Positions 28,319 to 63,465 of a DNA stretch of 64,000 nucleotides are shown piece after piece (the first letter of the stretch is position 1; every line of letters starts with the position of its first letter). This DNA comes from Thomasclavelia cocleata. Its GTDB lineage: Bacteria > Bacillota_I > Bacilli_A > Erysipelotrichales > Coprobacillaceae. The stretch lies in assembly GCF_900102365.1 (NCBI RefSeq), contig NZ_FOIN01000001.1:40064-104063 (forward strand), written 5' to 3'. Below the pieces are notes generated by a model, which was not told where the DNA came from, made no database searches, and saw only the letters and a list, made by a program, of their open reading frames with translations. The position numbers were made by a program, and so were the translations under genes.

Positions 28319-30130
28319 CTACTTATCTTCATCAACTGATAATATAGCCATAAATGCTTCTTGAGGAATTTCAACATTCCCAACTGCTTTCATTCGCTTT
28401 TTACCTTCTTTTTGTTTCTCTAATAATTTCTTCTTACGAGTTATATCGCCACCATAACATTTAGCAAGAACATTTTTCCGCATTGCTTTAATTGTTGTTC
28501 TAGCAATTATCTTCCCTTGTAATGCTGCTTGAATAGGTACCTCAAACATTTGTTTAGGAATAATTTCTTTAAGTTTTTCACATATAATTTTACCCCTATT
28601 ATAAGCAAAATCTTTATGAACAATTGTTGATAATGCATCAACTATCTCGCCATTTAATAATATATCCATTTTTTGAAGTTTACTTGTACGATATCCAATC
28701 AATTCATAATCAAGCGATGCATAACCTTTTGTACTTGATTTTAATTTATCAAAAAAATCGTAAACAATTTCTGATAAAGGAACTTCATAAATAACATTTC
28801 TTCTTGTATCATCAATATACTCAATATCAATATATTCACCACGTTTATTTTGACAAAGTTCCATAATCACACCAACAAATTCATTTGGTGTCATAATTGA
28901 GGCTTTTACATATGGCTCTTCAATATGCTCAATAACTTGAGGATTAGGCATCATTGCTGGATTATCAACAATCACTTTACTACGATCAGTTAAATAACAA
29001 TGATAAATAACAGAAGGTGCTGTAGCAATTAAATCCAAATCAAATTCTCTTTCTAATCTTTCCTGAATTACATCCATATGTAGTAATCCTAAAAAACCAC
29101 ATCTAAATCCAAATCCTAGAGCTTGAGATGTCTCAGGTTCAAACATGAGTGAAGAATCACTTAACTTCATTTTTTCTAAAGCCTCACGTAAATCTTTATA
29201 TCGAGCATTATCAACTGGATAAAGTCCACAATATACCATTGGATTCATTTGCCGATACCCTGGTAACTGCTCGCTTGATTCTTTTTCAAGTGTTGTAACA
29301 GTATCTCCAACATGTATATCTTGAATTGATTTAATTGAAGCACAAAACCAACCTACTTCACCAACAACTAGTTCTTCTTTCTTTACTTCTCTTGGTGTTC
29401 TAACTCCTAATTCAGTAACCTCATAAGTTGCATCTGTTGCTAAAAACTTAACAGTATCTCCAACCTTGATCTTACCTTCTTTGATTCGAACAAAAACAAT
29501 TACTCCACGATAGCTATCATAATATGAATCAAAAATCAATGCCTGAGTTGGATTATTAATATTTCCAGCTGGTGCAGGAAATTCTTTAACAATCTTTTCA
29601 AGAACATCATCAATATTTAAACCTGTCTTTGCAGAAATCAGCGGAGCATGATCAGCAGGTAATCCAATAACATCTTCAACCTCTTTAATTACTCGCTGAG
29701 GATCGGCACTTGGTAAATCTATTTTATTGATTACTGGAAGTATTTCTAAATTATTATCTAACGCTAAATAAACATTTGCTAATGTTTGCGCTTCCACCCC
29801 TTGAACAGCATCAACCACTAGTATTGCACCTTCACAAGCAGCTAATGAACGAGATACCTCATATGTAAAATCGACATGTCCTGGTGTATCGATTAAATGT
29901 AATAAATATGTTTGTCCATCTTTAGCAGTATAATTTAATTGAACTGCATTCAACTTTATTGTTATACCTCTTTCACGCTCTAAATCCATACTATCAAGTA
30001 ACTGAGCCTTCATTTCCCGATCAGCAACAGCTCCAGTCATCTGAAGAATACGATCTGCCAGGGTGCTTTTACCATGATCGATATGTGCGATAATAGAAAA
30101 ATTTCTTATTTTATTTTGATCAATAGTCAT
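28319..30130 (-). CDS. lepA: Elongation factor 4 (LepA)
   Basis: Ribosome-associated GTPase, 603 residues. G1 [11 protein letters not shown]2 RERGITI, G3 DTPGHVDF and G4 [10 protein letters not shown] are intact; the C-terminal LepA-specific domain is present ([22 protein letters not shown]). ATG at 30130 preferred over a GTG three codons upstream. Confidence 0.97.
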
Positions 30131-30191
30131 CTTTATCACCCACTTTCGTTATGATATTATAACAAATTAGCAGGATAAACTCAAATAGTAT

Positions 30192-30426: not shown

Positions 30427-31620
30427 TTAACCGCCTTGTACCAGGTCTGTACCAGTTGATATTATATTAATCTTTTCAAGATCGTCTTTTGCTCGAAGCT
30501 TGACATATATCCCCATAGTGGTAGTAATTTTAGAATGACCTAACCATTTTTGAATAAGCTTCATATCTATTCCAGATTCATAACACTTTGATGCAAACGT
30601 TACCCTAAGAACGTGCATTGTAAACTTTCTGAATTCGTTTTGCGGACTTCTTTTAAGATTAATATTTCGAATAATTTTCTTAATTGCATCATTACATAAT
30701 CTTTCATAGACAGGTGTTCCATTACTGTTCAAAAACATTAGCTCCTCATATTTGTTTCCGACTGTTTTTGCTACTCGTGCTTTGTTTAATATAAGTTTAT
30801 TTAACGCCAGTTGATTTTTAAGCGCCTTTAAAGCTGCATCATTTATTGGAATATAACGATTTGATGTTTTAGTTTTTGGACTGTCAACTAAGTACCGATC
30901 TTCCCTGATTTCGTTTTTGTCATGAAGATAGTGCAGTTGACGGTGAATATAAATTGTTTTGTTTTCAAAATCCACATCTGTAATTTTTAGACCAGAAATT
31001 TCACCAACCCTCAAACCTGTATTTAATGCAACTATAAATACATTAAAATAGATTGATGGTACAGCATTCGTTAAAAATATGCTAATTTCATCTTCAGTAA
31101 GAGGTATTTTTTCTTTTGACAATCTTTCTGGTGCCTTGAGTGACACTGAAGGGTTTCTTCCAATAAATTCTTCTTCATATGCCATTGAAAACATTCCCTT
31201 TACTAAATATACCCAGGTTTCTAAAGAGCCTTTAGCGGCAATTTTAGATATTTCACTATATTCAGTTTTTAAAAAAACTGTATCAATCGACTTTATTGAA
31301 TTGTTTGCCCATCTTCCTTTTATAAGCTGATTGTATACTCCTCTATACTTTCTCCTAGTTGTACTTTTAACTATATCAACCCTGTAAATATCATTCCAAT
31401 ATTCAAATAATTTTTTAACAGTCATGTTTTTAGTTGCGTTTTTCTTTTGAGCATCCTCCTTTAATGCTTTTCTAGCTAAAGTTTGGATTTCTCTGTAGCT
31501 ATCTGCCAGCAGAGTTTCTCTGGCTCCAAACCTATTGTTAAATCTAAAATAATACTTATTGTTATCTTTGCGTTGACCATAACCAACGCCAAGCTCTTCA
31601 CCTTTGAGATTCTTTCCCAT
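30427..31620 (-). CDS. int: Phage tyrosine integrase
   Basis: 397 residues: N-terminal AP2-like DNA-binding domain (~10-60), SAM-like core-binding domain (~65-165) and catalytic domain. Catalytic residues are Arg204 (NTGLRVGEI), Lys249/251, His336 and Arg339 (HVLRVTFAS), His362 (LGHSKITTT) and Tyr372. Catalyses prophage integration and excision. It directly abuts the att junction, as expected. Confidence 0.94.
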   Translation of the reverse strand: MGKNLKGEELGVGYGQRKDNNKYYFRFNNRFGARETLLADSYREIQTLARKALKEDAQKKNATKNMTVKKLFEYWNDIYRVDIVKSTTRRKYRGVYNQLIKGRWANNSIKSIDTVFLKTEYSEISKIAAKGSLETWVYLVKGMFSMAYEEEFIGRNPSVSLKAPERLSKEKIPLTEDEISIFLTNAVPSIYFNVFIVALNTGLRVGEISGLKITDVDFENKTIYIHRQLHYLHDKNEIREDRYLVDSPKTKTSNRYIPINDAALKALKNQLALNKLILNKARVAKTVGNKYEELMFLNSNGTPVYERLCNDAIKKIIRNINLKRSPQNEFRKFTMHVLRVTFASKCYESGIDMKLIQKWLGHSKITTTMGIYVKLRAKDDLEKINIISTGTDLVQGG

Positions 31621-38272: not shown

Positions 38273-38800
38273 TCATTCATGTAATACAATCTCTCTCTTC
38301 TTTAAAGACTCTTGTACCGATATTACACGTTGCTTAATTGAACCTCGCCACTTTAGATTTAAATCACGCTGCTCTAATATGAATCTTCCATCGACTAAAA
38401 CATCTATCATCTTAAGTGTTGCAAATGTTATATCATTCAAATATTCATTTTTGCACTCAGTTTTTTCCAATAGTTCTTCCCAAGTATATCCAGACCAAAT
38501 CCAAATTGTTTTGTCAGGAAAATCTCTTTTAAAAAGGGTTACAAGTGTATAAACATCATCAATATTTTTAGCGTCAAATGGTTCTCCGCCAAGAATAGAT
38601 ATTCCAGCGATATGCCCATTCATAGAGTCATAGATTTCTTTATATACTTCATCACCACAAGGAGTTCCATAATCATAATCCCATAACTTTTGATTAAAAC
38701 ACCCCTTACAATGATGGGAGCACCCAGAGAAGAAAATAGATGTTCTAATTCCTTCGCCATTAGCTATATCAAAGTTTTTTATTTTTGCTATGTTTGACAT
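38273..38800 (-). CDS. nrdG: Anaerobic ribonucleoside-triphosphate reductase activating protein
   Basis: 175-residue radical-SAM activase that installs the glycyl radical on NrdD. The [4Fe-4S] motif CSHHCKGC lies in SIFFSGCSHHCKGCFNQKLW, with ISILGGEPFDAKN and the C-terminal KWRGSIKQRVI. Its ATG abuts the nrdD stop codon, so the pair is coupled. Confidence 0.94.
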   Translation of the reverse strand: MSNIAKIKNFDIANGEGIRTSIFFSGCSHHCKGCFNQKLWDYDYGTPCGDEVYKEIYDSMNGHIAGISILGGEPFDAKNIDDVYTLVTLFKRDFPDKTIWIWSGYTWEELLEKTECKNEYLNDITFATLKMIDVLVDGRFILEQRDLNLKWRGSIKQRVISVQESLKKREIVLHE

Positions 38801-39762
38801 TACTCTGCTCCCAAGTGATATACCCTATCATGTATATCTTGCGCTCTGCCATCATTAAAGGGGTTAGTTGAAATATAACCACAAATTCTTAAAGCAATAT
38901 TCATTTTATTAAAATTATCATTGCCACATTGAGGACAATGGAATCTTAAGTCATCACCCATAGAGATATCTGTGCAGCCACATTCATGACAATATGAAGT
39001 AGTTGTGTTAATCTCAGCATACATATTTGTATTATAGATATGTTTAATGACTTCTAATAGCGCCTCAATATTCTTAGTCATATTTGGAGTTTCAATGTAA
39101 GATATTGCACCTCCTAAACTTAACTTTTGGAATTCACTTTCCAAACTTAATTTGGAAAAGGCATCAATTTGTTGAGATGGAGTAATGTGATAAGAATTAG
39201 TAATATAATCTTTATCAGTTATTCCTTCGACCAGTCCGAATCGTTCTCTAAGACATTTTGCAAATTTATATGTAGTAGATTCGATTGGACTGCCATAAAT
39301 ACTGAATCCAATATTTGTCTCCTTTTTCCATTTACTGCAAGCATCGTTTAATTTTTTTAATATATTTTCTCCAAATATACGTCCTTTTTCTTTGGTGTGT
39401 GATTCGCCTGTCATATATTTAACACACTCATAAAGACCAGCATATCCTAACGAAATTGAGGAATAGTCATTGAATAATAATTTATTAATTATTTCGCCTT
39501 TATTTAATCTCGCATATGCGCCATGTTGCCATAAAATTGGAGCTACATCGGATTTAGTACCTTTCAACGAATTATGTCTAACCATTAATGCTTTAAAGCA
39601 TAAATCTAATCTTTCATTAAATATTTGCCAAAATTTATCAAAATTTTTATTGCTTGACAATGCTATATCAGGTAATGATAAAGTTACAACACCTTGATTG
39701 AAACGTCCATAAAATTTTGGCTCATTGTTTTTATCATAATATGGTTGTAGAAACGATCTACA
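38800..39762 (-). CDS. nrdD: Anaerobic ribonucleotide reductase NrdD, 3' exon
   Basis: 320 residues beginning CRSFLQPYYD...GRFNQGVVTLSLPDIALSS, the continuation of the NrdD active-site region. It carries the zinc site CHECGC...CPQCGN and the glycyl-radical motif RICGYIS near the C-terminus. Alone it would lack the first 400 residues; it is joined to the 5' exon by removal of the intron at 39763-40056. An ATG formed by the intron's last bases would give a spurious separate start (MIFSKVM...). Confidence 0.92.
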   Translation of the reverse strand, partial: CRSFLQPYYDKNNEPKFYGRFNQGVVTLSLPDIALSSNKNFDKFWQIFNERLDLCFKALMVRHNSLKGTKSDVAPILWQHGAYARLNKGEIINKLLFNDYSSISLGYAGLYECVKYMTGESHTKEKGRIFGENILKKLNDACSKWKKETNIGFSIYGSPIESTTYKFAKCLRERFGLVEGITDKDYITNSYHITPSQQIDAFSKLSLESEFQKLSLGGAISYIETPNMTKNIEALLEVIKHIYNTNMYAEINTTTSYCHECGCTDISMGDDLRFHCPQCGNDNFNKMNIALRICGYISTNPFNDGRAQDIHDRVYHLGAE

Positions 39763-40056
39763 CATTACTTTGCTGAATATCACTATTCAAACTGACTAGA
39801 TGTTCTCTCCGAGTCCGTTAGTCTCATCGTCGAGCCGACCGCTTGGAGTTGGTGCTTATCTCCAACCCTACATGGTTACACTCATCACCATTAGTCGATA
39901 CACATTTACAACTGCAAAATAGCAATTGATTTAGCACGGTACTCATCTTAGATCATAATCGTTAGACTCCCTAAGACCTATCCGTTAGCAGTATTTGATA
40001 CTACACCCATTAAGCAAATGGTTCGATCGGTTTATCCTGGGCTATAGTTTACGCTT
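39763..40056 (-). ncRNA. Group I intron in nrdD (no internal ORF)
   Basis: 294 nt between exons ending ATGGGT and beginning TGTAGATCG. It follows group I rules: 5' exon ends in T (U-G pair at the splice site), intron ends in G. On the minus strand the R-like element GAGACTAACGG (GACTA at 39819-39823) pairs with TAGTC in the S-like element ACATCTAGTC (39794-39798) to make P7. A TTGGAG/CTCCAA hairpin (39843-39865) is nearby. Joining restores Gly-Cys-Arg-Ser-Phe in frame. No group II GUGYG start. It encodes no endonuclease. Confidence 0.85.
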
Positions 40057-41256
40057 ACCCATACACGGAAAACAGTTGTTTTGTTTTAATTCTCTCATTT
40101 TCTTTTCAGAAATATAATCTGGCACAAGTCTTTTAGAGCTACACTCAGCAGCTAGTTTAGTCAAATACCAATATTTGCTATTTTCATGAACATTGTCTTC
40201 TTCCAAAACATAAAGTAACTTCGGAAATGCTATTGTAATAGGTGCTCCTTTTTCATTTTTAACCCCTTTAATTCTTTGACGTAGTACCTCTTCAATAATC
40301 ATCGCTAAATCATTTTTGGTTTGTTTATCGCTAACTTCACCCAAATACATGAATATACTTGTAAACGGACTCTGCCCATTAGTACTCGAAATTGTAATTA
40401 ATTGATATTGAATAGTTTGAACGCCATCCGCAATTTCTTCCTTTAGTCTTTTTTCGGTTAATTCATCAATCAATTCTGGATTGCCACTTGCTATACCAAT
40501 TTCGTATTTAACTTTTTTCTTGATTTTTTTCCTACTAATATCAACAAAGGGTGCCAAATGTGATAGTGAAATTGTATTACCACCATATTGCGAGCTAGCA
40601 ACTTGTGCGATAATTTGAGTAGCTATAGTACAAGCGGTTCTGAATGAATGTGGTTTTTCAATCATAGTTCCACTAATAACTGTGCCATTTTGCAACATAT
40701 CTTCAAGATTAATTAAACTACAATTCGTCATTGGCATTCCTGGACTATAGTCCATATCATGGAAATGAATAATCCCTTTATTATGAGCATCAATTATTTC
40801 TTTAGGTACTAATAATTTTTCTGCCATCTCTTTACATGTAAATCCAGCTAAATAATCTCTCATTGTTGGTATAATACGAGTATCTTTGTTACTGTTTTCT
40901 TTTATAACTTCTTCATTATTACCTTTTACTAAGCTTATATAGTTATCGTACCTCTTACTTAAATCTTTTGATATTTCTCTATTAACATTTCTTTTACATC
41001 TATATCTAATATAAGCTTTGGCAACATCTCTTCTATCTGTATCTAACAATTTATCTTCTACCATATCCTGAATAGCCTCTACTGACAGATATTCAGTGTA
41101 GGTGTTAGATATTTCCTTTGCAATTAATCCAGCTTTTAATTTTGCTGATTCTGTGATTTTTTTATCTACTTCTTTAAATGCTTTGATTATAGCATTTTTA
41201 ATTTTGCTTGAATCAAAATCAACCTTATTCCCATTTCTTTTAATAACTTTTAACAC
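40057..41256 (-). CDS. nrdD: Anaerobic ribonucleotide reductase NrdD, 5' exon
   Basis: 400 residues: N-terminal ATP-cone (VIKRNGNKVDFDSSKIKNAI...YRCKRNVNR), FHDMDYSPGMPMTNCSLINL with a conserved cysteine, and a 3' end NCFPCMG directly before the active-site Cys encoded by the next exon. Together the exons give about 720 residues, usual for class III RNR. GTG at 41256 is the start because GAGGAG lies 6 bases upstream. Unspliced reading stops at TAG (40042-40044) inside the intron. Confidence 0.92.
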
Positions 41257-41266
41257 TAAATTCTCC

Positions 41267-41602
41267 TCATCTTGCAAGTTTTATTTTCTCTAACTCCATT
41301 TTGGCACCAATAAATCTTTCTTGTAATATTCTTGATAAAATATCAAATGGTACAGTATAACAATAAACATTGTTTAAATTATATATTTCAATATGGACTA
41401 TCACATTATTCTTCTTGTTGACAAATATTTGACCTCTAGTTGCGCCGAATCGTCTAATAACGTAAATAGAAATATTGTTATTATCAGTTGCATTTCCATA
41501 AAATAAAATGTGATTTTTTAAAATGTAATATTCGTCCTCACAACTGTCATTAAGATAATTGTCTAAAAATTTTGTGATATTATTTTTATATACTTTGTTC
41601 AT
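41267..41602 (-). CDS. Hypothetical phage protein
   Basis: 111 residues, mixed alpha/beta, no motif recognised. Its end overlaps the nrdD leader closely and it begins with ATG 41602. Confidence 0.6.
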   Translation of the reverse strand: MNKVYKNNITKFLDNYLNDSCEDEYYILKNHILFYGNATDNNNISIYVIRRFGATRGQIFVNKKNNVIVHIEIYNLNNVYCYTVPFDILSRILQERFIGAKMELEKIKLAR

Positions 41603-53055: not shown

Positions 53056-54238
53056 CTGATAATAACTCCTCAAGCATATTATCAAAATCAATGTCAATTT
53101 CATTAGAAGTATTGTTATCACCATTACTAATAGATAGCAAATCAATACCTCCCTTTTCATTTTCTAATTGTTTTAAATATTCTTTATAAGGCAACAATAA
53201 ATTAGCACTATAACCACACAACGTTGAGTAATAATAGCTTTGAGTTTTTACACTATCCTTATCATCCCAAAACAATTTAGAATCATGACTAAGTTTATAC
53301 ATATCAGTTTTTTCATTGATTTCATCAATTGTATTGATTAATAAATCTTTCCACTGTTGTAATAATTCTTGTGTTACTTCAACATACACCCAACAGTCTT
53401 CAAATATAAATTTTTCTTTTATGTCATCAGGCAAACAGTCTATTGAGTTATCTTGCATTACTTTCATTATATATTCATCGACTTGTTCACTATCGTATTT
53501 AAAATGTTTTAACCAAACCATTATATTAGACACCAGTGATTCGCCAAGTTTACATCTTTCGATTTCTCTAACTTTTTTCTTGCCATTTTTTTGTTCTATA
53601 GTAACATTTTGATACTTTAGAAAATTCCAGCCAATCTTAATTTTATTTAATGGAATACCCAACTGATGAATTCCAATTGCATACAGTGCCAGCTGACCAC
53701 ATTCTTCCAATGCTTTTTTACCTTTATAGATAGTGCTTGTTTTAAAATCCCCAATTATACAATTACCATCTTTTGTTGTAATCAATATATCAATATATCC
53801 TTGCAATACAATATCATGTCTTAACTTTATCAAAATAAATTGCTCAATCATTTTTTTATCAACTATTGATTTATGATTTTTAAAAAAATGTGTTAAATCT
53901 TCGTTATATTTAATTTTTATATTATTGTTTTTTTCGGAATTATTACGGTCAAATTTCAAATCAGCCAAATCAATATTTAACATCCAGCCATCTCGAAAAC
54001 GCTCTATCATATCATTATATTGAATTTTCCCCTCATAATACTCCTCTAAAACACCGTGTGCTACCCCGCCTAGGGGTGCATACGCACAATTATTATTATC
54101 TTCAGGAATATGTTTAACGTATCTTAAAAAATATTCATAATGTGATGTCATATAGGAATGCACCCTAGACCAACTCCACAGAAAATCAACAGAGTATTTT
54201 TTACATATTCCTGAAAGTTCTTCTTTTGTCTTTCTCAA
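53048..54238 (-). CDS. PD-(D/E)XK nuclease (RecB/Cas4-like)
   Basis: 396 residues. NCIIGDFKTSTIYKGKK then ALEECGQLALYAIGI is the RecB-family D-x-K core with the Q-x-x-x-Y motif; HGVLEEYYEGK matches the preceding helix. Starts with TTG overlapping the upstream stop codon and without a clear Shine-Dalgarno. Likely processes ends in phage recombination or replication. Confidence 0.82.
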   Translation of the reverse strand: MRKTKEELSGICKKYSVDFLWSWSRVHSYMTSHYEYFLRYVKHIPEDNNNCAYAPLGGVAHGVLEEYYEGKIQYNDMIERFRDGWMLNIDLADLKFDRNNSEKNNNIKIKYNEDLTHFFKNHKSIVDKKMIEQFILIKLRHDIVLQGYIDILITTKDGNCIIGDFKTSTIYKGKKALEECGQLALYAIGIHQLGIPLNKIKIGWNFLKYQNVTIEQKNGKKKVREIERCKLGESLVSNIMVWLKHFKYDSEQVDEYIMKVMQDNSIDCLPDDIKEKFIFEDCWVYVEVTQELLQQWKDLLINTIDEINEKTDMYKLSHDSKLFWDDKDSVKTQSYYYSTLCGYSANLLLPYKEYLKQLENEKGGIDLLSISNGDNNTSNEIDIDFDNMLEELLSDV

Positions 54239-55329
54239 TTTTTATTTTTTAAACTATCTAAGTATTTTTTATGTTCTTTTTCGTCATATTTTATTTTATA
54301 CTTCATTAAAAATTCGAATATATTACTGCTCTTATCTGCAATAGAATCTTTGGGATTTAATAAATTATATTTATCATATGTGTAATAAACATTTCTGATA
54401 CCATAAAATTTTTCGCACATATGACGTATTTCATTAATACTTATATCTTTATCCAAACTAATGATAATATCTACATTTAAACCAATTAAAATCCTTGCCT
54501 GTTCCGAACTTAATGTGTGTCCACTTAAAGCTACTCCAGTTGGATCTTTTCTAGAATGTCTTTTTAATACACTTTTTTCCGATTCATATACAACTACATA
54601 ACCATATTTTGTTATATCTTCTTTATTTTCCCATAATCCATATAGGTTATGACTTTTTGGGTAAGTAGGAGTAATAAAATATTTTTTTATTCCCAATTCT
54701 TCATAATTATCAATAACTGTTCTCTGATTATATCCTAGCAATTTACCATCAAGCCAGTATCTTAAGGGAATTATATTTCTCTTATATAAGTGACTATATG
54801 CTAACCCGAATTTTTTTATGGTTTGTGGAACAATGCCTTCACGAAACCAATCAATATGGATATACGGTATATAATCAATATTCTCCATTTCATCCAAATC
54901 TATGTCTTGTACATAAACAGTGCTTCGTTTGATTTTTTTAAACACTTCTAATGGATCATTAACTTGTTTTTTTACTTTAACATCTTTATTGTATGTTAAT
55001 GGTATATCAAACAATTTGTGTACATATTTAATTGCTTCTCGAAAATCAAAATTTTGATTAGTTCTAGAAAAATTATACTGTATCAGTGTAAATATATCTG
55101 ATTTGATCTCATCATTACTTTTAAAGTATTCTTCTCTTGTATAGTTACGAACATTAATATATTTATTATTATTAACAACTATACAAGAAGGATTATCTCC
55201 ATCAATGTTCCCACAAGTAAAATATTCTTTATTTTTATTATATTTAATATGATGACATCCAATTTCATTTAGAACATATTCGATCTTACAATTATTAAAA
55301 ATGTATTCTTTTAGTTCTAATCCTGTCAT
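54235..55329 (-). CDS. DNA primase (zinc-binding + TOPRIM)
   Basis: 364 residues from ATG 55329 (GAGGG upstream). N-terminal CHC2-like zinc finger (IGCHHIKYNKNKEYFTCG; DNPSC) and a TOPRIM domain with VVVYESEKS (Glu) and IISLDKDIS (DxD). No helicase domain; it is coded next to the DnaB-like helicase. Makes primers for the phage polymerase. Confidence 0.85.
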   Translation of the reverse strand: MTGLELKEYIFNNCKIEYVLNEIGCHHIKYNKNKEYFTCGNIDGDNPSCIVVNNNKYINVRNYTREEYFKSNDEIKSDIFTLIQYNFSRTNQNFDFREAIKYVHKLFDIPLTYNKDVKVKKQVNDPLEVFKKIKRSTVYVQDIDLDEMENIDYIPYIHIDWFREGIVPQTIKKFGLAYSHLYKRNIIPLRYWLDGKLLGYNQRTVIDNYEELGIKKYFITPTYPKSHNLYGLWENKEDITKYGYVVVYESEKSVLKRHSRKDPTGVALSGHTLSSEQARILIGLNVDIIISLDKDISINEIRHMCEKFYGIRNVYYTYDKYNLLNPKDSIADKSSNIFEFLMKYKIKYDEKEHKKYLDSLKNKN

Positions 55330-55339
55330 CTTTAACCCT

Positions 55340-56791
55340 CTAATAATCCATTGGAACGTTTGTGAATCCAACTTCTTTCAAAATATTTCTACTTAAATCA
55401 TGTTCAACTACTATCTGATATGTATTGGCTGCACCCTCTCTGTTTTTAACAATAAATATTATTTGATAATGCTTATTATCAGCCAATCTTACTGGCACCT
55501 TTGACAATCCATTTTTACCAGCATACGTATAGATATTTAACGCCCGTTTACCGCCTGGTCTTTCATCGTCAAATAATGTTCTTATCATCAAACAGGTACT
55601 TGCAGGATCAACAATATTTTTTGCCATACCAATATTGTCTTGAGTATAATATCTTTGCATTACACTTCCTTTTGATAATTGAAATGTGATAAGTATATGT
55701 ACATTTTTACTCTCTGGTTTTACAATATCGTTAATTTCAACCATGTTTTGTTGCATTTGCAACCATGCATGACTCTCAACCTTTCCTGCATCCATTTTAT
55801 AAGTGTCTAGTGCAAAATATCTAATACCAAGACTTATGTATTTATTCATAATTTTAATAACATTTTTAGTTTTATACTTTTTAAAAGGAATTATAGTAAT
55901 AACATTATCTTTGTCTTTATTTTCTATCCATTTTGCTGCTTCAAGTAATAATTCTTTGGTCTCATTTTTGAAAGAGCCATCTCTAACTGTTTGTTTTTGA
56001 AGATCTTTTTTTATAACATTATTGGCCACATATACCAAAAATTCACGTTGCCATTTTTTTAGTCCATCCTCATTAAGCATAATGACTATTTTCTCATTAT
56101 TTTCAATAATGCTTGGTATCGTAGAACTTCTTAAAAAAGCAGATTTTCCAACATTAGAGAGCCCACCAATTAAAGTAATTGAACCCATATATTGTCCGCC
56201 AGTTTCATTAGTTAACATCCTCATGTTGTGATATGGTAAACCAACTGCCAACCCTTCATCTAATTCATCAATTAAATCTCTAATTTTGTAAGATATACTG
56301 TATGACTTCATATCTGTATCAGCATTGATGAATATATCATTAAACATACATTCATATTCTTCATAGATTTCTTCAGTTGTACAATCTATAAATTCTTTTA
56401 ACTTGTTGTCATCAACAATAATTCCCATTTTACAGAGTTTTATTACTATGTTCCATTTTTTCAATTCACTAATATATCCATTAAAATTATCTTCAGAAAT
56501 ATATTCGATAGCATTTTTTATAGTATTATAACCGCCAAAATTTTCATAAACTGTTTTTAATTTTGGATGTTTTTCTAAATATAAACCAACAGTAATAACA
56601 TCTAATACATTCTTTTTTTCAATATTATATAAGTCATTCACTATTGCAAAATATACCTTCCAAGCATTATTGGTAAAATCATTAATGCTTAATTCAACGT
56701 TGGATAATAATTCAGGTTTTTTAAATAATATTGAAACTATATTTGCTTCACAAGGCAACTTGATTTCAGCAACCTTTTTAATAGTACTCAA
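55340..56791 (-). CDS. DnaB-like replicative helicase
   Basis: 483 residues. N-terminal DnaB helical domain (EANIVSILFKKPELLSNVEL) and a RecA-type core with Walker A IGGLSNVGKSAFLRS, MLNEDG and LITFQLSKGS. Length and order with primase fit. The TTG at 56791 lies directly against AAAGG, so initiation at an ATT three codons in is possible. Unwinds phage DNA. Confidence 0.85.
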   Translation of the reverse strand: MSTIKKVAEIKLPCEANIVSILFKKPELLSNVELSINDFTNNAWKVYFAIVNDLYNIEKKNVLDVITVGLYLEKHPKLKTVYENFGGYNTIKNAIEYISEDNFNGYISELKKWNIVIKLCKMGIIVDDNKLKEFIDCTTEEIYEEYECMFNDIFINADTDMKSYSISYKIRDLIDELDEGLAVGLPYHNMRMLTNETGGQYMGSITLIGGLSNVGKSAFLRSSTIPSIIENNEKIVIMLNEDGLKKWQREFLVYVANNVIKKDLQKQTVRDGSFKNETKELLLEAAKWIENKDKDNVITIIPFKKYKTKNVIKIMNKYISLGIRYFALDTYKMDAGKVESHAWLQMQQNMVEINDIVKPESKNVHILITFQLSKGSVMQRYYTQDNIGMAKNIVDPASTCLMIRTLFDDERPGGKRALNIYTYAGKNGLSKVPVRLADNKHYQIIFIVKNREGAANTYQIVVEHDLSRNILKEVGFTNVPMDY

Positions 56792-56841: not shown

Positions 56842-57288
56842 TTACCAGTATCCTTTTAATTTTTTATTTGTCTTTTTAGTTTTTGGTTTATATTTTGCTT
56901 TAAAATTATTTTCCAAATTAGTTAAATCGATTCCTTCTATTTTGCTTTTGGCTTTTTCAGATTCTTTAATTTTTGTATATAAATTGTTTAAATCACTCTC
57001 GACAATCTTTTTAATATATACAAATTTTGAATGTTCATTTTTAAAATTCTTTGTTTTAATTGCATAATCAATTTTATTTTTATTTAATTTAAACGACAAT
57101 AAAATGATTTTAAACGGATAATGAGCATTATCCTTAATCTTTCGATTTTCAATTGCCTTACCCGTTTGCAATCCTTTTAAACCTAAAACAATATTAGAAG
57201 GAAGCGACTGATTCTGATCATAATTAAACACATTAAGTTTTACATATTGATATAATTCATCCCAATCTTGTTTTTCTTGTTTAGTCAT
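56842..57288 (-). CDS. Hypothetical phage replication-region protein
   Basis: 148 residues, helical, Lys-rich C-terminus (KAKYKPKTKKTNKK). AAAGGAGG precedes the ATG. Between the Sak4-like ATPase and the DnaB-like helicase, so a replication role is possible; no family recognised. Confidence 0.62.
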   Translation of the reverse strand: MTKQEKQDWDELYQYVKLNVFNYDQNQSLPSNIVLGLKGLQTGKAIENRKIKDNAHYPFKIILLSFKLNKNKIDYAIKTKNFKNEHSKFVYIKKIVESDLNNLYTKIKESEKAKSKIEGIDLTNLENNFKAKYKPKTKKTNKKLKGYW

Positions 57289-57305: not shown

Positions 57306-59498
57306 TTATTTAGTCAACTTTAATATCTCTTTAGATAAGTTCAAATCAGTAATTTCTTGTAAATTAGTAAGTCCATATTTTTTTAGAATTAATAATATTG
57401 GAGTAACAACTTCTTTGTTTGTTTTATTTTTTACAATAAATGCTTGAATGGTTTCAATATTTTCTTTTAATTCTTTTTCTTCTTTGATAATTTTTTGTTG
57501 AACTTCGATTTCTTTCATTCTTTTCTTAATTTCTTCATCTTGCTCCATTTTTGTTTCATCAAATGATTTATTTGATTTAGCCTGTTCTGCCTTAATTGCA
57601 TCTGTTAAAGCTTTAATGAATTCAACAGAATCAAACTCTATTTCAGGTACAATTTCCGCAAATCTTGAACCAGAGTCGATTACATATGCATCATCTCTAA
57701 ATTTAATTTTTCGAGATTGCGATTTTAAAGTCTTTTTAATTACTTCGTTTCCTTTGAAATCTTTTTTTCCTGTTTTTTCTGATGAGATAGTTCTGTCAAA
57801 GTATGCCAATGCTAAGAAATGAACTTTCTTTTTTAAACCATTGAAATAAACTTTTTCAACATCATTTGTCAATGTCGTATATGTTTCACCACTAACAGTG
57901 TCAGTGATTTCTTTTGGTTTCACGTGACCAATTACAATAAAGTTAATACCAACTTCTTTAAATTCCCACAAAGCATCAAGCATTAGTTCCAACGCTTTCT
58001 TTTGTCCTCTTTGATATCCCTTCCAAGCTGCATCGATTGATTTGACTTTAGCATCTGGATATTCTTTATTACTTTGACGAATAGATTCAGCTTCTGCTAA
58101 TTCAATAAAACCATCATATGTATCTATAACAACTACTTTTAAGTCTTTATAATCAGTGGTTCTATTTTCAATAATGTCATCTTTAATATCTTCAAAAGTA
58201 TCCCAATCTGATACGTCTTCAGCAATAATTCCCTCAATGGCATCTGCACCACTTTCTTTTCCCATTTCTAAGAATAAATAGCCATCTTCGCCAACTAATT
58301 CTTCACAAACCTCTTTAATTAATGTTGTATTGTGAGTAACAATATAGTCTTTTGTAATATATGTATGATCGGGGTTATCAACCATAATACATTGTGATTC
58401 TTCTTTTCCAACCAATTTAATATCTCTAATGATTTTAGAATATTCAAAACTTCTCTCTTTATTTAACTTGTTTTTATGTTTTGTGGATAAATGCAATTTT
58501 TCATAATCACCATAAATTGACATAGAATATTCAATTTCATTGCTACACTTTTTTGTACTGTTCTCATCTGTATGGTTATATTCGGTAATCTTAACAATAT
58601 AACCCAACGATCTTGCTAAACTAGAAATATCATTGGCAAGATGCTTAGAATAAATACTAATGCAAATATTATTCCCTCTTGCTATATGCCCCGTATTAAT
58701 GATTCCACTTAATAAAGCAAGCCTATTTTCAATAGATGAATAAATATAAATTTCAGGAACAAACTTCTCTTTTGACCCACGATTATTTAATCCTAATTTC
58801 TTAATTACTTCTTTGAAAGTATTCGATTTATCTGTTTCACATACAATACTTGCTTGTTTATAATTATCAAAACATCTTGTATGAAGTTTAACATTTAAGG
58901 ATGAAATCTCATTAGCTAACTCTTCAAATAGCTCATTCTCTGAGTTTGTAAAAGTATATACATCACCAGTGAACCCACCATTACCCAGCATTAATCCTAG
59001 AGCATAGGGCGATAATGGTAATTTATTTTGATTATCAAATTCAATAGGTAAGTTTATAGGGACACTATATTTATAGTTAAATTTACTTTTTTTATTAATG
59101 TTGTTAACGGGAGTTTTATAATCTTTTAAAATTTCCTCCAATGTTACTACTTTATAACGATAGTCATTATATTTTCCCATATTTGAACGTTGCTTTGCTG
59201 TTTGCACTGTCCATAAATGTTTTAGTCCACATCGTGTAGAAGTACCATCTTCAAATGTTACTTCATAAACATCTTTTACACCTTGTGGGAAAACTCCAGT
59301 TACGGGATATGTTTTACCATCTCTACCATAAACCAAGTCTCCAATTTGAATCTCTCCCATTGGTTTCCAACCTGCGCTTGTAAGCACTGGTTCTGAGATA
59401 GGTTGTTCTTTACCAATCTTAGGTTCTCCTAATAAGATTGTATTATATGATAAAGGATCAACTTTTACGTGATTCTTTTTACCAAATCTTCTAACCAT
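57306..59498 (-). CDS. Sak4/RecA-like AAA ATPase interrupted by an intein
   Basis: 730 codons; mature extein about 370 residues. Extein N-part: NTILLGEPKIGK (P-loop, residues 19-30), then the intein (31-390), then TTLIKEV completing the Walker A. The C-part has Walker B VVVIDTYDGF and NFIVIGHVKP, typical of phage Sak4-type single-strand annealing ATPases, and a coiled-coil C-terminus. Inactive until splicing. It follows the SSB-like gene by one base. Confidence 0.88.
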   Translation of the reverse strand: MVRRFGKKNHVKVDPLSYNTILLGEPKIGKEQPISEPVLTSAGWKPMGEIQIGDLVYGRDGKTYPVTGVFPQGVKDVYEVTFEDGTSTRCGLKHLWTVQTAKQRSNMGKYNDYRYKVVTLEEILKDYKTPVNNINKKSKFNYKYSVPINLPIEFDNQNKLPLSPYALGLMLGNGGFTGDVYTFTNSENELFEELANEISSLNVKLHTRCFDNYKQASIVCETDKSNTFKEVIKKLGLNNRGSKEKFVPEIYIYSSIENRLALLSGIINTGHIARGNNICISIYSKHLANDISSLARSLGYIVKITEYNHTDENSTKKCSNEIEYSMSIYGDYEKLHLSTKHKNKLNKERSFEYSKIIRDIKLVGKEESQCIMVDNPDHTYITKDYIVTHNTTLIKEVCEELVGEDGYLFLEMGKESGADAIEGIIAEDVSDWDTFEDIKDDIIENRTTDYKDLKVVVIDTYDGFIELAEAESIRQSNKEYPDAKVKSIDAAWKGYQRGQKKALELMLDALWEFKEVGINFIVIGHVKPKEITDTVSGETYTTLTNDVEKVYFNGLKKKVHFLALAYFDRTISSEKTGKKDFKGNEVIKKTLKSQSRKIKFRDDAYVIDSGSRFAEIVPEIEFDSVEFIKALTDAIKAEQAKSNKSFDETKMEQDEEIKKRMKEIEVQQKIIKEEKELKENIETIQAFIVKNKTNKEVVTPILLILKKYGLTNLQEITDLNLSKEILKLTK
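58329..59408 (-). other. Class 3 intein with degenerate LAGLIDADG endonuclease
   Basis: 360 residues. Begins with Glu, not Cys/Ser; opening EPVLTSAGWKPMGEIQIGD is a Hint block A. Block B has Trp (GLKHLWTV, residue 96), block F Cys (SQCIMVDNPDHTY, residue 370), block G Thr-His-Asn (388-390) followed by Thr +1. This is the W-C-T set of class 3 inteins. The endonuclease motifs ALGLMLGNGGF (166-176) and ALLSGIINTGHI (261-272) have lost the catalytic Asp residues. Confidence 0.9.
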
Positions 59499-60682
59499 TA
59501 GTCACCTAATTCTTTCAATAATTTTTCTAAATCTGCCGCTTCTTCATCATCCAATTTTGGATCAACTACTTTCATTTCTGTATCTTGTTTTTTATTTGTT
59601 GCTTTAGGCAAGATAAATTCTAAATCAGATTCTTCATATTTTTTTCTATCAATTTGAAGTTTTGGAGTTTTTGTTCCATCTTCATTAATAATCATTTTGA
59701 TGTCAGGTTTGATTAACATCATTCTTCGTTCTCTATTTGAACTTACTGAACATTTATCCAATGCTTCGTCAAGTTCATATATTCCCATATCAACCATTTG
59801 TTTAATATCATCATCCAAATCGTCATATGTAGCTGTTACAATGGTTCCACCTTCAATAAATCTTCCTACAAAAGTAATTGCTGTAACGCCCTCTTTAACT
59901 TTGAATAATAATCGTATTAATTTTAAATATTTTTCATTATCTGAATTATCTATTTTATATTCAAAGTTCACTTTAAATGGATAAGTTTGTTTTACATCAA
60001 CGCCTTTATAATCTTTAAGGTAATCCGCCACATAACCATCTATTAATAAACATCCTTTATCTTTGTCATATTTTTTAACATCTAGGCAGTCCTTATCGAA
60101 TAATACTGTTTGAGTAAATTTGGCATCATATTCTTCTGGTTTTTTATTTGAAAGATAGATTGCTTTAATTTCTTTATTTACCACTACATTATCATCATTA
60201 TTAAATGAATATTTTAAATTTCCTTTGACATTAACAATCATACCTTCTTCAAGGTTTTCTTTAATATAATTTATAAAATCATAAGAACTCAAAAATTCTT
60301 CAATAACTAAATTATCATTAACATCCTTTTTTAAGCCTGCTTTATAGAAACAATTTTTACCAATAGTCATTAAAATATCTTTATTGTCTCTATCTTCCCA
60401 AGCAATATCAAATCTGTTATCAAAATCATCATATCCATTTTCATCTTTACCATGAACATATACTAAATTTTTACGATCTTTTCCATAACCACCCATTGCT
60501 TTCCCGTATATCACACCACATTCTTCTCCGCAGTTGATTCCAAGATTTAGGCTGTTATAAATCCAATCACTCTTTTTTGACTTTTCATCTATTTGGAAAG
60601 TAAATTTATTAAATTTAGCAACTTTCCCCACCAAACTAAAGCTTGATGCACCTCTTTTTAATCCATTTTGTTTTTCTGCCAT
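59498..60682 (-). CDS. SSB-like phage protein with acidic tail
   Basis: 394 residues from ATG 60682 (GGAGG upstream). Beta-rich, with an OB-like N-terminal region (FSLVGKVAKFNKFTF; GMIVNVKGNLKY) and a C-terminal acidic tail DDEEAADLEKLLKELGD. Its direct neighbour is the Sak4-like ATPase, whose relatives need an SSB partner. Family not firmly recognised. Confidence 0.55.
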   Translation of the reverse strand: MAEKQNGLKRGASSFSLVGKVAKFNKFTFQIDEKSKKSDWIYNSLNLGINCGEECGVIYGKAMGGYGKDRKNLVYVHGKDENGYDDFDNRFDIAWEDRDNKDILMTIGKNCFYKAGLKKDVNDNLVIEEFLSSYDFINYIKENLEEGMIVNVKGNLKYSFNNDDNVVVNKEIKAIYLSNKKPEEYDAKFTQTVLFDKDCLDVKKYDKDKGCLLIDGYVADYLKDYKGVDVKQTYPFKVNFEYKIDNSDNEKYLKLIRLLFKVKEGVTAITFVGRFIEGGTIVTATYDDLDDDIKQMVDMGIYELDEALDKCSVSSNRERRMMLIKPDIKMIINEDGTKTPKLQIDRKKYEESDLEFILPKATNKKQDTEMKVVDPKLDDEEAADLEKLLKELGD

Positions 60683-60729
60683 TAAATCCTCCATTTTCTT
60701 TTTTTATTTTAAATTTATTTTCAACGTTA

Positions 60730-62634: not shown

Positions 62635-63465
62635 TTATTCTTCTACGACACCAATAATTTCAACTTTCTCACATCTGATTTTACCATCTGTTTGATAAGG
62701 TACGCACACACCCATTAGCCATTCGTTTCTAATAAGAACTTTATATATTGTTCGACCTGAAGTTGTTATGTCTCCTTTAACCCAATCTAAAGTTGCTACA
62801 TTTATACCGCACCCACAGCCACTTGTTCTATTGAAATTGACATTTTCTTCTATTACTTCTCCTATTTCAATTTTCCAATTAGGATTTGGTTTATAGCATA
62901 GACCAAATGTTTTATAGGCAATATATCCCTCATCAGTTTTTTCGAAATATTTATTCATAATTTCGATTGCTGATGGTAAGCCTTTTGCATTACTTAAATT
63001 TGCATATCTTAAATTTGCACCACTTAATTTTGCACCACTTAAATTTGCATCAGTTAAATTTGCACCACTTAAATTTGCATCAGTTAAATTTGCATATCTT
63101 AAATTTGCATATCTTAAATTTGCATATCTTAAATTTGCACCACTTAATTTTGCACCACTTAAATTTGCATCAGTTAAATTTGCACCACTTAAATTTGCAT
63201 CAGTTAAATTTGCATATCTTAAATTTGCATATCTTAAATTTGCATATCTTAAATTTGCACCACTTAATTTTGCATCAGTTAAATTTGCACCTCTTAAATC
63301 TGCATTACTTAAATTTGCATTAATTAAATTTGCGTCAATTAAATCAGTATAACTCAAATCAGCTTTTACACTTTCTTTTTCCCCTTTTAACCACTTTTTA
63401 TGAAGTTCTAATATTTTATCTAAATCTTCTCTTGTAATTTTTCTTAATTCACTGTTATCTAACAT
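62635..63465 (-). CDS. Pentapeptide-repeat protein
   Basis: 276 residues: helical head (~1-40), about 25 A(N/D)LXX pentapeptides from ~43 to 170 making a right-handed quadrilateral beta-helix, and a C-terminal domain with SGCGCGINVATLDWVKGDIT and RNEWLMGVCVP (DUF5758-like). Such helices can mimic DNA; role here unknown. AAGGAAGG precedes the ATG. Confidence 0.85.
   Translation of the reverse strand: MLDNSELRKITREDLDKILELHKKWLKGEKESVKADLSYTDLIDANLINANLSNADLRGANLTDAKLSGANLRYANLRYANLRYANLTDANLSGANLTDANLSGAKLSGANLRYANLRYANLRYANLTDANLSGANLTDANLSGAKLSGANLRYANLSNAKGLPSAIEIMNKYFEKTDEGYIAYKTFGLCYKPNPNWKIEIGEVIEENVNFNRTSGCGCGINVATLDWVKGDITTSGRTIYKVLIRNEWLMGVCVPYQTDGKIRCEKVEIIGVVEE
63001..63274. repeat. 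120-bp tandem duplication inside the pentapeptide gene
   Basis: 63001-63120 is repeated identically at 63121-63240, with a third partial copy to about 63274. The unit is itself eight 15-bp pentapeptide codon sets. Confidence 0.9.

Follow-up and report, generated by a model that had tools for sequence, protein, structure and literature searches.

The Sak4-like gene of a prophage in Thomasclavelia cocleata very probably carries, within its P-loop, a class 3 intein that was acquired by homing, whose endonuclease has since died and which should still splice. Five lines of evidence support this reading: the architecture of the gene, its junctions, the Trp-Cys-Thr (WCT) set of class 3 residues, the loss of catalytic aspartates relative to close relatives, and discordant intein and extein trees. 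From these we infer that the intein splices and that its predicted endonuclease does not cut DNA, as well as the order of events. Within the 64,000-nucleotide stretch of DNA analysed here (the window), the gene is an ORF on the reverse strand at 57306-59498, whose frame is open across all 730 codons. The intein comprises 360 residues, from E31 (codon GAA, ending at 59408) to N390 (codon AAT, starting at 58329), and thus covers 58329-59408 on the reverse strand. It splits the Walker A motif as GEPKIGK|TT, with GEPKIGK at residues 24-30 (59409-59429, reverse strand) and TT at residues 391-392. The N-extein (residues 1-30, MVRRFGKKNHVKVDPLSYNTILLGEPKIGK; 59409-59498, reverse strand) includes the first half of the motif and is covered by the alignment of empty-site relatives, while the C-extein (57306-58328, reverse strand) runs from T391 to the stop. 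The IMG/VR contig 2634166354_000003 contains an ORF identical at every base. In the ORF of a second assembly (L007) there are two single-A indels, both in A-runs, which are most likely sequencing errors because the neighbouring sequence shows similar single-base indels; a reading of these frameshifts as a sign of decay was rejected on the same grounds.

An uninterrupted Walker A was found at the exact position of the intein junction in about 80 homologous loci. The nearest intein-free homologues (L174 and L175) show GEPKIGKTTLIKEVCE across the site, with GEPKIGKTT uninterrupted, and other intein-free versions read GESGIGKTTLAKEVCE in L092 and others and GEGGIGKTTVIKQVCE in L005 and MT835556. 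Because these homologues have an uninterrupted motif, the insert can be placed exactly between Lys30 and Thr391, and its exact removal restores GEPKIGKTT. The insert also ends in His-Asn, is followed by Thr at +1 (HN|T391) and has a HINT fold. The coordinates and junction proposed in a preliminary description of this DNA proved exact when checked against codon positions and the uninterrupted homologues. That description had named a junction elsewhere or a nucleophile at residue 1 as contrary evidence; neither was found, since the empty-site alignment confirms the junction and residue 1 is Glu. An alternative in which the insert is no intein but a large domain inserted into the ATPase has nothing in its favour except the long single ORF, and the match to the HINT and HEN folds, the splice-junction motifs and the uninterrupted homologues refute it in practice, leaving it a negligible probability.

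Every sequence feature of class 3 is present in the insert, and at this level its assignment as a class 3 intein is confirmed. No Cys, Ser or Thr occupies residue 1, and the class-defining Trp at B:12, Cys at F:4 and Thr at G:5 correspond to Trp96 (59211-59213), the predicted nucleophile Cys370 (58389-58391) and Thr388 (58335-58337), all on the reverse strand and accompanied by His94, His389 and Asn390 and then Thr391. All six of these intein residues have aligned counterparts in the class 3 DnaB intein 6rix and in 6riz, a gp41-1 intein with a grafted WCT set (PMC7664689), and phmmer gave E-values of 5e-10 to the class 3-mutant gp41-1 intein and 7e-8 to class 3 DnaB inteins. The N-terminal HINT part (about residues 31-105; 59184-59408, reverse strand), with E31, His94 and Trp96, was delimited by alignment to 6riz and 6rix and by structural match to class 3 DnaB inteins. 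Alignment to 6rix and invariant alignment columns define the C-terminal part (about residues 349-390; 58329-58454, reverse strand), with Cys370, Thr388, His389 and Asn390. Across 61 aligned inteins, H72, W74, C348, T366, H367 and N368 (numbering of the A4 alignment) are invariant. An AF2 model (pLDDT 90.2, pTM 0.90) matches PI-SceI with Z 27.9 over 334 residues, spanning the full intein; the splicing part of the model matches the class 3 DnaB inteins 6bs8, 6riy and 6rix with Z 17-18 (VIA-align) over 123-128 residues at 1.6-1.9 Å. The earlier claim of a class 3 intein is therefore borne out by the WCT set, the Glu at residue 1, the terminal THN and the HINT fold of the model. In the proposed mechanism, Cys370 would attack the Lys30-Glu31 peptide bond directly to give a branched thioester, the N-extein would be transferred to Thr391, and Asn390 would cyclise as the exteins are joined and GEPKIGKTT is restored. 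Thr391 would act both as splicing nucleophile and as Walker A threonine.

Between blocks B and F, profile and fold searches identified a two-repeat LAGLIDADG fold (Pfam Hom_end, 1e-5; PI-SceI in both kinds of search), and this domain, about residues 156-348 (58455-59033, reverse strand), is predicted to be dead. An active LAGLIDADG enzyme is expected to have a catalytic Asp in blocks C and E. Here, the block C motif ALGLMLGNGG (58974-59003, reverse strand) has Asn173 (58980-58982) in place of this Asp, where L091 and L012, two IMG/VR sequences carrying the closest inteins, have GDGG and phage 949 has GDG. In the block E motif LLSGIINTGH (58686-58715, reverse strand), the Asp codon is deleted between T269 and G270, where L091 has INTDGH and L012 has INTDGT. 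Because these closest inteins keep both aspartates, one Asp gave way to Asn in the lineage of the window and the other was lost with its codon, which strengthens the initial observation that both motifs (GNGG; INTGH) had lost their catalytic Asp. Both catalytic acids are kept in 110 of the 124 retrieved inteins; 12 have lost one, and two (the window intein and L079) have lost both. Seven other inteins in the retrieved set combine Asn at the first motif with an intact second motif. Asn at the first motif alone need not prove a dead endonuclease, and the deleted second Asp is the stronger lesion.

The endonuclease domain contains 26 private changes in the window intein, compared with 20 in L091 and 18 in L012, which is not a significant excess (p 0.23), and faster decay of the domain on the window branch was rejected on this basis. 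As the rest of the domain shows no excess change, the loss of the catalytic aspartates is probably recent, or else the domain is probably retained for structural reasons; residual constraint or function in the domain is possible. The PhoVMA intein has likewise lost both catalytic aspartates, including by a deletion in block E, with the domain otherwise retained, although it is archaeal, resides in VMA and does not belong to class 3 (PMC8966425). A lost endonuclease would also fit a class 3 intein that is dying and no longer splices efficiently, in a prophage recombination gene that is inactive; the host prophage may be decaying, and PMC3196547 gives Arthrobacter Arth_1007 as a case of a class 3 intein in a pseudogene. 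We consider this unlikely, however, in view of the open 730-codon frame, the intactness of all splicing residues and both junctions, and a lineage-specific change in the splicing domain (6+3) that is no higher than in the two relatives (9+4 and 6+2). We retain the reading in which the window lineage, after the arrival of the intein, lost both catalytic aspartates (D173N and the deleted codon), so that homing would have ended and splicing would have been kept.

The inteins of the window, L091 and L012 group in a single clade (support 100) and share the insertion site, Glu at residue 1 and the WCT set, with 58% identity between the window intein and its two relatives in this clade; L091 also shares the gene order. 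The two relatives differ from the window intein in their intact catalytic aspartates, and in L012 the codon corresponding to Ser105 is an in-frame TAA (L012 1029-1031), which may be either a sequencing error or the mark of a broken copy. The exteins of the three, by contrast, lie apart in the tree, each beside intein-free relatives: L091 with L183 and L167 (74-77% identity), L012 with L177 (67-68%), and the window with L174/L175 (56%). The AU test rejected a single extein clade (p 3e-101), and with it vertical inheritance of the intein together with the host gene, repeated loss aside. Because the intein and extein trees disagree, the intein probably moved between phage lineages, and its arrival in the Sak4 gene by homing between related phages explains the data best. 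Repeated loss of an ancestral intein is a possible rival explanation of the discordant trees, but the inteins are more alike (58-60% identical) than the exteins (49-53%), which speaks against it and for movement by homing. A further class 3-type intein (Gly1, HLW, THN) is located at the Sak4 P-loop site in L173 (from 2971), and its intein and extein are 26% and 47% identical to those of the window, respectively. It is probably an independent invasion, in which case the site has been invaded more than once. Neither a second copy of the intein nor an empty Sak4 allele was found in the genome containing the window, and a Sak4-intein protein was absent from the 59 related genomes other than its own.

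More distant relatives were detected in the Lactococcus phages 949, LW81, AM4 and AM5 (phrog_19299), where the Sak4 site is occupied. They resemble the window intein in the Sak4-like host family, the GK|T junction, gene order, the block F Cys and the terminal THN, but differ in having 34% intein identity, Ile for Trp at B:12 and both catalytic aspartates; residue 1 is Ala in 949 and Cys in LW81/AM4, as against Glu in the window. The proteins carrying them are annotated as hypothetical, PhoH or terminase, the intein of 949 is unannotated, and no paper describing these Sak4 P-loop inteins was found. The site is empty in Lactococcus phage WRP3 (GRPKSGKTSLFYE), and also in L47 and AM1, as judged by a two-piece match restricted to the extein half of the query. 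The label 'terminase large subunit' is attached in RefSeq and PHROGs to Sak4-like proteins of the 949 group (NC_015263.1, NC_049855.1, NC_049856.1 and NC_027341.1), including intein-free members. We reject this label, which probably follows the intein and not the host protein.

These Lactococcus inteins belong to a clade, nested in the class 3 inteins with support of 100, that has Ile for the class-defining Trp and comprises phages 949 (L002 2980-5073), LW81 (L003 2980-5088) and AM5/AM4 (L006/L102), Staphylococcus phage Alsa_1 (L009), and L125. Alsa_1 has Ala1, like 949. The Cys1 of LW81/AM4 may reflect a natural return towards class 1 splicing, in near-identical phage genes for which the intein-free WRP3 offers a control. 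In the Staphylococcus phages Alsa_3 (L004 2986-4798) and Alsa_1 (L009 1486-3297), the Trp-less intein interrupts the P-loop (GVPGAGK|TT) of a protein whose annotation is RNA ligase, and in Alsa_3 a frameshift within the intein splits the ORF.

The host protein of the window intein (residues 1-30 plus 391-730) matches phrog_124 at 7e-17, as did 14 of 14 extein-family relatives tested, and Pfam places an AAA_24 domain over the C-extein (57663-58271, reverse strand; 7e-16). For the intein-free relative L174, an AF2 model (pLDDT 87) gave matches to proteins of the RecA/RAD51 type and to a Sak4 structure (8rc5; Foldseek E 1e-6, TM by target 0.60). The combination of a family match with a RecA-like core and Walker A upholds the Sak4-like ATPase identity first suggested for this protein. 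ATP binding should need splicing because Lys30 and Thr391 stand 360 residues apart in the precursor, and a precursor without a working ATP site until spliced is expected.

The preliminary description had gone further and proposed that splicing gates recombination. Sak4-like proteins of Staphylococcus aureus phages anneal single-stranded DNA and are required for phage replication, and in PA73 Sak4 recombination activity survived mutation of Walker A (PMC5499656); a RadA precursor with a P-loop intein lost ATPase activity and still bound single-stranded DNA (PMC6195587). In light of the PA73 mutant and the RadA precursor, we treat gating as a hypothesis. A rival reading would be a domesticated regulatory intein, with redox- or induction-responsive splicing as a switch on phage recombination. 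Such a conditional switch would delay the recombination protein in the lysogen until induction, and the phage would keep the intein for regulation. Although the class 3 P-loop intein of Mycobacterium smegmatis DnaB is redox-controlled (PMC6195587) and the splicing residues of the window intein are kept despite the loss of homing, we regard this as very unlikely: an intein can be retained without conferring any benefit, since a gene interrupted in a conserved motif is lost unless the intein splices, and Walker A was dispensable for recombination in PA73 Sak4.

The window contains host chromosomal genes up to lepA (28319-30139), followed by a tyrosine integrase (30427-31620, reverse strand) that adjoins lepA and is the probable left prophage edge. 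Because phage genes run from this integrase to the window end, the Sak4-intein gene is placed in a large prophage of a temperate phage, which is represented in IMG/VR by contigs 96 and 130 kb long. On the reverse strand, the gene is flanked by a 398-aa protein of phrog_2367 (59498-60694) and a 148-aa protein of phrog_25520 (56842-57288), both conserved neighbours, and then by a DnaB-like replicative helicase (55340-56791; phrog_19 at 1e-29) and a DnaG-like primase (54235-55371; NCBIfam). This order matches that of Lactococcus phages 949 and LW81, in which an ORF of similar size to the phrog_2367 gene precedes the Sak4 gene. Elsewhere in the window, nrdD (anaerobic ribonucleotide reductase; 38800-41277, reverse strand) consists of two ORFs, one with the ATP-cone and NRDD 1-265 and the other with NRDD 263-562 and the glycine radical domain. 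They are separated by a 258-base non-coding gap that looks like an intron and matched no Rfam family even at E 1. A pentapeptide-repeat ORF (62635-63465, reverse strand) has a repeat region that is very different between the otherwise near-identical assemblies L007 and L008.

The rarity implied by the preliminary description proved wrong. Scanning of viral contigs gave at least 561 intein matches, and class 3 inteins at GK|T sites, as judged from sequence, are abundant there. Among 125 aligned inteins (two of them the window protein), Cys is found at F:4 in all and Trp at B:12 in 120, and residue 1 is Ala in most cases, with Glu, Ser, Leu, Met and Asp following in that order; these frequencies are biased, as the patterns used for scanning were weighted towards class 3 C-termini. 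The mycobacterial DnaB-b inteins (MsmDnaBi1, 6bs8; MchDnaB1, 6rix/6riy) share with the window intein class 3 membership, the WCT set, the P-loop site and a +1 hydroxyl residue that doubles as the Walker A Ser/Thr (PMC6195587), but their host is the replicative helicase DnaB, their residue 1 is Ala, and they are mini-inteins with the endonuclease deleted, unlike the window intein, which keeps a predicted dead one. The TerL1-a inteins of mycobacteriophages also separate the Lys from the Thr of Walker A in a phage protein, which in their case is a terminase (PMC5050341). The window intein is thus a further example of a well-known type of genetic parasite and no new system. No description of a Sak4 intein was found among the papers searched, and what this Sak4 P-loop intein and its relatives offer is a natural comparison set for one gene, made up of intein-free, live-endonuclease and dead-endonuclease alleles.
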